From: Mesobacillus persicus | GTDB taxonomy: Bacteria > Bacillota > Bacilli > Bacillales > Cytobacillaceae | Direction: 5' to 3' | NCBI RefSeq assembly: GCF_900109925.1 | Contig: NZ_FOBW01000007.1 | Location: forward strand, 62,001 to 126,000 | Length of the DNA stretch: 64,000 nt | Made by a program: the position numbers and the translations under genes | In this document: positions 61,569 through 63,401 of the stretch, piece by piece | How the letters are laid out: the number at the start of each line of letters is the position of its first letter | Numbering within the stretch: position 1 is the first letter of the stretch | Notes under the pieces: model-generated | What the model saw: only the letters and a program-made list of their open reading frames with translations | The model's database searches: none | What the model was told of the DNA's origin: nothing

Positions 61569-61744
61569 ATTATCTCCTCCTATAGGTAATCACCAGTTTC
61601 ATCGTATTAATATTATAAACGAACCTATCTATATACTTGCAAGTAATATTTATAATTTTCAGTATATTTAAATAAAAATAAAAAGCCTAGTATCTAACAC
61701 TTGGCTTTTACAGACGGTGCTCCAAAACATGTATAAAACCGGTT

Positions 61745-62085
61745 CTACTCAACATTGTTTTTTCTATACTTAAGAAAGTTAATATAAAGAGAAAATTCTT
61801 CCTTACTTACACCATTACGTATAGCTTCATCTATCATTTCTAACCATTCAGGATCGACTGGCTGCTGAGAATCACTTAAAGGATGAATGGATGGTCCTGT
61901 TATTTCATCCAGGGAAACCTCAAGCGTTTTGGCTAAACGTGAGAGCACCTGTAAGGATGGGTTTTCTTGAATTCCTCTTTCGATGTAGCTCATATAGGAC
62001 TTCGAAACATCAGCTCTACTCGATAATTCAGTAATGGAAAATTTTTATGAATTCTTAATTTCCTAATTCGCTCTCCTATTAGCAT
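61745..62085 (-). pseudogene. SinR-family regulator with a frameshift (SlrR/SinR paralog)
   Basis: From ATG 62085 (AAGGAGACTATAAAG upstream) the frame reads MLIGERIRKLRIHKNF, then shifts. The second frame restores ITELSSRADVSKSYMSYIERGIQENPSLQVLSRLAKTLEVSLDEITG and a C-terminal SinR dimer domain, DPEWLEMIDEAIRNGVSKEEFSLYINFLKYRKN. One T missing from the run near 62036-62045 explains the break; the total of 341 bases is one short of 114 codons. An intact product would be about 113 residues, the size of SinR. A SinR-like palindrome (62115-62130) lies 30 bases upstream. Confidence 0.88.
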
Positions 62086-62114
62086 CTTTATAGTCTCCTT
62101 CGAAAACACTATAA

Positions 62115-62130
62115 ATTCATTATAACGAAC
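62115..62130. promoter_or_regulatory. SinR-like palindrome before the SinR paralog
   Basis: ATTCATTATAACGAAC matches the operator consensus GTTCATTATAAAGAAC in 14 of 16 positions. Confidence 0.55.
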
Positions 62131-62187
62131 GTATTGGGCGCGTCAAACAAGTATCCATAAAATTATATAGAAAAAATGTAAAATTTT

Positions 62188-62203
62188 GTTCTTTTTTAGA
62201 AAC
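62188..62203. promoter_or_regulatory. GTTCTTT half-site in the sinI upstream region
   Basis: GTTCTTTTTTAGAAAC carries an exact SinR half-site GTTCTTT and a weaker inverted arm. Confidence 0.35.
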
Positions 62204-62311
62204 GGTAGAGGTTTATTTTTTTGGGGGTAGTATCCAATAATTGTTTTTACATTTTATGACAATTATCTACAAGATTTTTTAAATTTCCATTTAATTACCA
62301 ACCGTTTTCGC

Positions 62312-62317
62312 TATAAT
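62312..62317 (+). promoter_or_regulatory. Probable -10 box of the sinI transcript
   Basis: TATAAT, with TTTAAT 16 bases upstream as a possible -35. A start near 62324 would give a leader of about 245 bases including the riboswitch. Confidence 0.45.
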
Positions 62318-62429
62318 GAAGGTAAAAGTGTCATATTTTGGAAAAAACTATAGTCGGAAGTTTTAAAAAGACTGACATATTTCTACACAATCTCTGATTA
62401 GGAACATTTAAAATATTAAATGGGGAGCA

Positions 62430-62531
62430 AGGTTTAGATAGCCTGTAACAGAAAAAGGCTAACTTGTTGAAAAGCAAGGGCGCAAAGTCACGGGTCTAAG
62501 GGGTAGAAATCCTATGATAGCCGGATTGCCT
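62430..62531 (+). ncRNA. c-di-GMP-I (GEMM) riboswitch in the sinI leader
   Basis: The conserved GEMM-I layout is visible: AAAGGCTAAC, a first helix capped by a GAAA tetraloop (CTTGT-TGAAAA-GCAAG), then GGGCGCAAAGTCACGGGTCTAAGG, a variable second hairpin, and ATGATAGCCGGATTGCC. GCAAAG, the GGTCTAA segment and the GATAGCCGG strand are the hallmarks of the class I aptamer, which contacts c-di-GMP through a G in GCC and an A in the first helix. It ends about 37 bases before sinI. A hairpin AATACG-AAAT-CGTATT (62534-62549) lies between aptamer and the AGGGGGAG ribosome binding site; how ligand binding acts on it is not clear. Confidence 0.87.
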
Positions 62532-62568
62532 GGAATACGAAATCGTATTTTAGGGGGAGTATGGAGCG

Positions 62569-62709
62569 ATGGAAAAAGAAGTGTTCGGTGAATTAGACGT
62601 TGAATGGGTGCAGCTTATTAAAGAAGCCCTAGACCTAGGGATGAAAAAAGAAGACATCCGCAGCTTTTTGGCTAAAGAACAACCACAGCAATTAGTTCTT
62701 GATAAATAG
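62569..62709 (+). CDS. sinI: SinI-like antirepressor
   Basis: A 46-residue protein, MEKEVFGELDVEWVQLIKEAL then DLGMKKEDIRSFLAKE and a short polar tail. It matches the SinI domain: LD-x-EW-x-x-L-x-x-EA with the x-x-ISxEEIRxFL helix pair that forms the heterodimer with SinR. ATG 62569 is 9 nt after AGGGGGAG. It lacks the long C-terminal tail of Bacillus subtilis SinI. By analogy it should bind and disable SinR. It is convergent with sinR and not in tandem with it, and lies under a c-di-GMP riboswitch. Confidence 0.85.
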   Translation: MEKEVFGELDVEWVQLIKEALDLGMKKEDIRSFLAKEQPQQLVLDK

Positions 62710-62737
62710 GAACTTTAAGAAATACATAAACTAAGAA

Positions 62738-62767
62738 GCAACTCACGGTGAGTTGTTTTTTCTTTTT
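62738..62767 (+). terminator. Terminator of sinI
   Basis: CAACTCA and TGAGTTG pair around CGG, followed by TTTTTT. Confidence 0.85.
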
Positions 62768-62775
62768 TTAAAAGA

Positions 62776-62802
62776 AAAGGCAACCATTACGGTTACCTCA
62801 TA
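62776..62802 (-). terminator. Terminator of sinR
   Basis: Minus strand GGTAACC and GGTTGCC pair around GTAAT, followed by TTTTCTTTT. Confidence 0.75.
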
Positions 62803-62806
62803 AGCA

Positions 62807-63130
62807 TTATTTATTTTGGTTAGACCGCCATTTGTTGAATTCAAGGAACTCTTTAAACTGTTCTTTGGAGATACCTGAATCCATCGCTTCGCGAACGAGT
62901 TCGACCCAATCTGAATCGACAGTTTCATAATTTGGTTCATCATGAATCAATCGATCCACAGAAATATTAAGGACCGATGCAATTTTTTCTAAAAATTGAA
63001 TCGATGGGTTCGTTTGAAGGTTTCTTTCAAGCGAGCTTATGTATGATTTGGCAACTCCAGCTTGTTCAGCAAGTTCGGATAAGGACATTTTTCGTTCTTG
63101 TCTTATTTTTTTTACTCTTTCACCTATCAC
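62807..63130 (-). CDS. sinR: SinR master regulator of biofilm formation
   Basis: A 107-residue regulator strongly like Bacillus subtilis SinR (111 residues). HTH domain: MIGERVKKIRQERKMSLSEL, AEQAGVAKSYISSLERNLQT, NPSIQFLEKIASVLNISVD; C-terminal dimer domain: DSDWVELVREAMDSGISKEQFKEFLEFNKWR, the part bound by SinI. SinR represses matrix genes through GTTCTYT sites. The start is GTG 63130 behind GTGTGAAGG. A matching palindrome lies 59 bases upstream (63189), suggesting autoregulation. Likely targets in this window are the exopolysaccharide and Tad operons. Confidence 0.92.
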   Translation of the reverse strand: MIGERVKKIRQERKMSLSELAEQAGVAKSYISSLERNLQTNPSIQFLEKIASVLNISVDRLIHDEPNYETVDSDWVELVREAMDSGISKEQFKEFLEFNKWRSNQNK

Positions 63131-63188
63131 TAGCCTTCACACACCTTATCTTCATATCTTTATTAATCATAACAAAACAAACTGACAA

Positions 63189-63204
63189 GTTCCATATCAA
63201 GAAC
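63189..63204. promoter_or_regulatory. SinR-like palindrome before sinR
   Basis: GTTCCATATCAAGAAC has perfect GTTC/GAAC ends eight bases apart, like the sites at 23457-24251. Confidence 0.55.
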
Positions 63205-63401
63205 AGTCATAGAACAAAATTTTTTCTTTATTATATTATTAAAAAGGAACTATCGATGTGCTAAAAGTTACATTTGCTTATTGTTCAGCATAGTTAATTC
63301 GGATATGGGCTTATCCTCAAAGCAGTTATTGTATTTTTTACACGGACCGCTGTATAAGCTAATATAGAGAAATAGATTATGTTTATCAGGGAGATGAAGG
63401 G

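Follow-up and report, generated by a model that had tools for sequence, protein, structure and literature searches.

SinI disarms the biofilm repressor SinR, and in Bacillus subtilis the two proteins are encoded by the sinI-sinR operon. There, phosphorylated Spo0A induces sinI (PMC8470499). A table of riboswitches in Bacillus methanolicus MGA3, detected in 5'-UTRs defined by transcription start mapping (PMC4342826, 2015, Table 4), lists a putative '(c-di-GMP)-sinI' riboswitch at BMMGA3_08510; the preliminary description of the locus analysed here knew of no described case of this wiring. In Paenibacillus, an 'antisense-acting' riboswitch of the same aptamer family lies opposite a SinR-like gene (PMC9943018). 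In a c-di-GMP-overproducing strain of Bacillus thuringiensis, sinI expression was raised in a microarray, and an aptamer plays no part in that account (PMC7793685).

A search of the open full-text literature found neither a functional test of a sinI riboswitch nor an account of its spread. The pairing of aptamer and sinI goes unnamed in the available parts of PMC7793685, PMC7266159, PMC12452182, PMC9943018, PMC13418472, PMC9481103 and PMC3971182, and likewise in those of PMC6143707, PMC8876208, PMC10240345, PMC7423583, PMC4879592, PMC7911051 and PMC8470499.

The aptamer and its neighbours in Mesobacillus persicus

Our locus lies in a 64-kb stretch of Mesobacillus persicus DNA (hereafter the window; positions 62001-126000 of a contig that measures 246,160 bases; genome size 4.64 Mb), and feature coordinates count from the first letter of the window. 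A c-di-GMP-I (GEMM-I) riboswitch aptamer occupies 62447-62533 on the + strand. The Rfam model RF01051 aligns with it end to end (model positions 1-87 of 87), scoring 81.5 bits against a gathering threshold of 35 (E 1.8e-14) with zero non-standard pairs marked. At Rfam gathering thresholds it is the sole match in the 64 kb, one overlapping match of the same clan having been set aside.

The equivalents of the ligand-contacting bases are all standard. The ungapped alignment to RF01051 places G 62457 (+ strand, model position 11) at G20 of Vc2, A 62484 (+ strand) at A47 and C 62529 at C92, on a mapping of the Vc2 numbering to model columns that is partly our assumption. Riboswitches of the c-GAMP (GEMM-Ib) type carry A at the G20-equivalent, and that type is ruled out for the window aptamer by the G at 62457. 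The Rfam variant c-di-GMP-I-GGC (RF03167, consensus CGCGAA), which has G at the A47-equivalent, is ruled out by CGCAAA in its place. The window sequence is thus of the c-di-GMP type, and it probably binds that ligand.

The aptamer ends 35 nt before the start codon of sinI (62569-62709, + strand), which encodes a putative antirepressor of 46 amino acids (Pfam SinI, 49.7 bits; cut-off 31.4). The protein is a dimerisation motif without an HTH domain, PF08671 spanning residues 9-35 of the 46. Its only other Pfam match, MerR_1, covers the same residues and falls below the cut-off (18.2 vs 21.6). Among solved proteins its matches are weak: 5tn2_A (E 0.00055) is the best of those to SinR dimerisation domains, and SinI is matched as 1b0n_B (E 0.0036) and 5tmx_A (E 0.0047). 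The preliminary description had recognised the parts of a c-di-GMP-I aptamer in this leader and placed a SinI-type gene about 37 nt beyond it; the covariance model and the Pfam match bear out aptamer and gene, and only the distance needs correcting. The observation itself is confirmed.

Convergent with sinI lies sinR (62807-63130, - strand), encoding 107 amino acids with Pfam matches to HTH_3 (62.4 bits) and SinI (53.2 bits). Its closest solved relative is SinR itself (1b0n_A, E 9.1e-39, residues 1-106). A terminator-like hairpin (62733-62761, + strand) stands 3' of sinI and ahead of sinR; the terminator scan that identified it returned 6 terminator-like sites over 61700-63400, against a shuffle mean of 1.1. 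The promoter consensus scan at the locus gave 9 sites versus 6.3 in shuffles, and no clear promoter. On the other side, divergent from sinI, Pfam identifies a second SinR-like gene (61745-62109, - strand) whose frame is broken into ORFs at 61990-62109 and 61745-61993. SinR-like open frames occupy its place in 7 related loci, and the break may be either a sequencing error or a real loss. All three SinI-domain matches of the genome fall at this locus.

Four c-di-GMP-I aptamers are present in the whole genome, the sinI-linked one included. Judged by eye, the ORFs that follow the other three (L001, L003 and L004) are oxidoreductase-like in one case, like a secreted coiled-coil protein in the second and, about 0.8 kb on, LysM-like in the third, where the opposite strand also holds a chain-length-determinant-like ORF. 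The genome has 11 GGDEF matches, 10 of them near full length.

Recurrence of the aptamer-sinI arrangement

The same aptamer stands before sinI in related genomes as well. We compared the M. persicus genome with 60 relatives, 61 genomes altogether, of which 47 have a SinI-domain match and 53 an RF01051 match. Among the matches listed, 55 of 85 standalone SinI genes (open frames of fewer than 100 amino acids, the window sinI included) have a same-strand aptamer of the c-di-GMP-I clan close upstream by Rfam, 37 of these aptamers being labelled RF01051 and 18 RF03167. The aptamer lies 40-78 nt ahead of the SinI motif in the 55 linked genes (median 59), and at 53-62 nt in 42 of them. With 320 RF01051 matches over the 61 genomes, about 5 per genome, and an estimated 4,500 or so genes in each, chance would place about 0.1 of the 85 SinI genes after an aptamer. 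Again among the matches listed, a linked aptamer occurs in 39 of the 44 genomes with a standalone SinI gene, and within the genus all 12 SinI genes, in 7 genomes, carry one. The remaining 30 of the 85 listed genes are without an upstream aptamer, and SinI genes of this kind are the only ones in five genomes.

We reject the RF03167 label because its defining base is absent: all 54 linked aptamers checked read GCAAA where RF03167 has GCGAA. The G20-equivalent differs in 3 of the 54, being A in L075 and L076 (both from G012) and C in L127 (G030). These substitutions could alter the ligand preference.

A second set was assembled from named genomes, as the best 80 of 178 loci by likeness to the window SinI (78 short-frame, 2 long-frame). 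For this set, for the class-wide draw and for the SinR-like control described below, aptamers were sought with a profile made from the sequences of the linked aptamers rather than with Rfam. Among these best 80 loci, nhmmer finds an aptamer before 62 of the 78 short-frame SinI genes; 16 of the 78 and both long-frame genes are without one. The genera represented are Mesobacillus, Cytobacillus, Metabacillus, Niallia, Neobacillus, Oceanobacillus, Virgibacillus, Evansella and others. Since the two sets overlap (G003 and L146, for example), neither count (55 of 85, 62 of 78) is independent of the other. As a control we took 58 SinR-like ORFs from the loci of the relatives, some of them in overlapping stretches; none has an aptamer directly upstream.

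The arrangement also reaches beyond the order. A class-wide draw of 200 genomes gave 34 with a match and 30 loci, 20 of which contain an aptamer match. In 18 of these 20 a SinI motif follows closely on the strand of the aptamer (L251 and L254 are the exceptions), and 11 of the 18 loci belong to genomes of the same class and another order. The other 10 of the 30 loci are without an aptamer (L229, L233, L235, L237, L238, L240, L244, L247, L248 and L255); in two of them, L240 and L244, SinR agrees with the solved SinR of B. subtilis. None of 14 control genomes, B. subtilis among them, has an RF01051 match.

The expression platform and the predicted direction of control

The end of the aptamer doubles as the start of an expression platform. 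Its 3' edge reads GCCUGG, in which the covariance models make the first of the two C the ligand contact, a numbering that we take to be correct. The segment 62529-62532 (+ strand), comprising this C92-equivalent C and the 3' strand of P1, CUG (62530-62532), is shared between two structures: CUG can pair with CAG 62449-62451 to form P1 in the bound state, placed here after the drawing of the sister family RF03167, or with the Shine-Dalgarno side in the unbound state. The same overlap is repeated in relatives. The unbound pairing is an 11-bp hairpin, CCUGGAAUACG-AAAU-CGUAUUUUAGG (62529-62554, + strand), whose 3' arm contains the first three bases of the sinI Shine-Dalgarno sequence AGGGGGAG (62552-62559, + strand), a purine run found before the start codon in relatives too. 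Because the window hairpin spans only those three bases, repression may be partial.

The hairpin is more stable than its composition would give, and it is conserved. The window segment 62527-62562 has a folding energy of -13.7 kcal/mol (z -4.95), and none of 200 shuffles is as low. We analysed the leaders of the linked genes for hairpin, accessibility, arm pairing and aptamer letters in 54 of the 55 cases. From the C92-equivalent to the Shine-Dalgarno sequence, the 54 leaders average -7.7 kcal/mol against -3.8 for spacer shuffles that keep single-base composition only (mean z -2.2); the G006 Shine-Dalgarno sequence was misplaced in this stability analysis and correctly placed in the accessibility and arm-swap analyses. 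The arms covary in relatives, as in CCUAAAAUAG/CUAUUUUAGG and CCUUAUA/UAUAAGG. Arms were swapped among the 41 leaders whose length allowed 9 levels, and these have 19 distinct arm pairs. Own arms were paired in 88.3% of cells and swapped arms in 75.5% (maximum 84.2%), so that none of 1,000 swaps reached the value of the native combinations. P1 also varies in step. Two or more of its base pairs can form in 45 of the 54 leaders, and 9 leaders have no 2-bp P1 at the tested place. Its strands read CAG/CUG in 31 of the 54, UAG/CUA in 8 and AAG/CUU in 1. Pairing of the CC with the Shine-Dalgarno sequence is weak evidence by itself, being found in 53 of 54 leaders where shuffles give 47.6.

Imposing a bound-like form on the leaders opens the ribosome site in the model. 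Mean Shine-Dalgarno accessibility rises from 0.33 to 0.64 over the 54 leaders, and from 0.37 to 0.84 in the window leader. It goes up in 42 leaders; 12 show no clear rise, including 4 in which it goes down. For the 9 leaders whose P1 falls short of 2 bp, three bases were held unpaired to impose the bound form.

The unbound structure of the window leader is strong in silico, at -41.1 kcal/mol in a fold that takes no account of co-transcriptional order. In this minimum-energy fold a 6-bp pairing of 62439-62444 with 62456-62461 competes with the aptamer and disturbs its 5' side.

We can propose how the switch would work. Without c-di-GMP, CCUG 62529-62532 would form the foot of the hairpin and tie up the start of the Shine-Dalgarno sequence, and little SinI would be made. 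With c-di-GMP bound, the first C of CCUG would contact the ligand and the next three bases would form P1 with CAG 62449-62451; the hairpin would then lose its lower pairs, freeing the Shine-Dalgarno sequence for synthesis of SinI. SinI in turn would bind SinR (62807-63130) and lift its repression, with a presumed effect on biofilm formation. Since accessibility is predicted to increase and the 3' edge of the aptamer is also the 5' arm of the hairpin, c-di-GMP should free the ribosome site. We think it probable that this c-di-GMP-I riboswitch is a translational ON switch of sinI, with SinI then relieving repression by SinR. The preliminary description had proposed that c-di-GMP directly controls production of the antirepressor. 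That main inference is well supported by the recurring arrangement and the conserved platform, ligand binding and the effect on expression being predictions from sequence. The description was silent on direction, for which the RNA anatomy predicts ON.

The opposite sign, in which c-di-GMP lowers SinI and SinR stays active, is unlikely. Published class I c-di-GMP riboswitches include an ON switch before cbpA in the B. cereus group (PMC7423583) and an OFF switch before flgB in C. difficile (PMC8470499), and the 4 leaders that lose accessibility would suit an OFF switch. However, the hairpin that ties up the Shine-Dalgarno sequence has to compete with the bound form, and the gains in 42 of 54 leaders argue for ON.

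Could the riboswitch RNA instead act against sinR? In PMC9943018, antisense control of this kind was proposed for a SinR-like gene of Paenibacillus, with a c-di-GMP-I riboswitch reported antisense to it, and sinI and sinR do converge in the window and at 28 of the 55 linked loci. We regard this as very unlikely here. A terminator-like hairpin separates sinI from sinR, and the expression platform is fitted to the ribosome site of sinI. Moreover, sinR is co-directional and downstream at 7 of the 55 linked loci, and at 20 there is none within 1.3 kb downstream, although 3 of these have one upstream and some stretches stop at a contig end. In four genomes of another order (L243, L245, L250 and L252; 6.4-6.8 Mb), the aptamer is followed by a small sinI ORF and then by convergent sinR, at about 1340-1950 of these loci.

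Transcriptional attenuation, with the hairpin after the aptamer serving as a terminator, is more improbable still. The 3' arm of the stem does contain UUUU, and a class I switch, that of cbpA, is reported to turn on transcription (PMC7423583), yet only 4 of the 11 pairs are G-C, the stem is followed by G bases instead of a U-run, and the platform hairpin is absent from the terminator-scan list. We give equally little credence to the aptamer being a relic or the sensor of another ligand: the RF03167 label on 18 of the 55 linked aptamers among the matches listed and the 3 altered G20-equivalents would fit such a reading, but the GCAAA kept throughout and the standard contact bases of the window aptamer speak against it.

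Spo0A, SinR targets and known systems

Control by Spo0A need not be displaced by the riboswitch. Taking TGTCGAA as the Spo0A box, and a SinR half-site motif likewise assumed, we scanned 116 upstream regions, each 350 bases long at most, which are not independent because they draw on both overlapping sets. Exact Spo0A boxes number 55, in 53 of the 116 regions, against 3.3 in shuffles that keep single-base composition only, and SinR half-sites number 36 against 14.3. The enrichment of Spo0A boxes upstream of the aptamer in relatives means that the riboswitch need not replace Spo0A; a Spo0A promoter layer at that place is likely, judging by these motifs. In many relatives transcription through Spo0A and translation through c-di-GMP may both be needed, as an AND gate. 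The scanned part of the window (beyond 61400) has no exact Spo0A box, and a single SinR half-site lies upstream of its aptamer, at 62188.

The targets of SinR in M. persicus are less clear. A palindrome search of the genome for a SinR regulon gave 17 sites against 25 in the control, which is no excess. The genome has no match to PF12389 (TasA-type), so that the matrix targets of SinR either differ from those of B. subtilis or were missed.

In the B. subtilis model sinI answers to Spo0A, and c-di-GMP is not known to act directly on the SinR matrix switch. Through a riboswitch that recurs before the antirepressor gene, the attachment signal would lead directly to matrix derepression in many Bacillaceae. 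We can go further, to a proposition whose chances we judge evenly balanced: that outside the B. subtilis group, and across a large part of the Bacilli, the SinI/SinR biofilm switch is as a rule wired for direct control of SinI translation by c-di-GMP, layered on Spo0A; that B. subtilis, the source of the textbook account, lacks this wiring; and that the Paenibacillus antisense riboswitch is the same system with sinI unannotated.

How does the locus compare with the described systems? The window SinI and SinR are sequence relatives of the B. subtilis pair. However, RF01051 has no match in the B. subtilis control genome, in which the SinI family is present. The cbpA (Bc2) riboswitch of the B. 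cereus group belongs to the same aptamer class and has the ON direction predicted here (PMC7423583). It differs in switching on transcription of a surface adhesin, whereas here the gene encodes an antirepressor and a predicted anti-Shine-Dalgarno hairpin overlaps P1.

In the Paenibacillus case the authors read their riboswitch as antisense control of the SinR-like gene, whereas in our locus the predicted target is sinI in sense orientation (PMC9943018). Because sinI lies between aptamer and sinR in L243, L245, L250 and L252, that case may involve an unannotated sinI, and by this analogy a small sense sinI may be the target of the Paenibacillus riboswitch. The aptamer-sinI arrangement thereby offers a simpler reading of the published 'antisense riboswitch'.

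The B. methanolicus MGA3 leader is the nearest counterpart: going by its description, it too has a c-di-GMP riboswitch upstream of sinI, listed there as putative and without mechanism, direction or spread (PMC4342826). The riboswitch class and the target gene are thus already known, and their pairing is once in print; to these the present analysis adds how broadly the arrangement occurs, that its predicted switch is conserved, and how B. subtilis differs.
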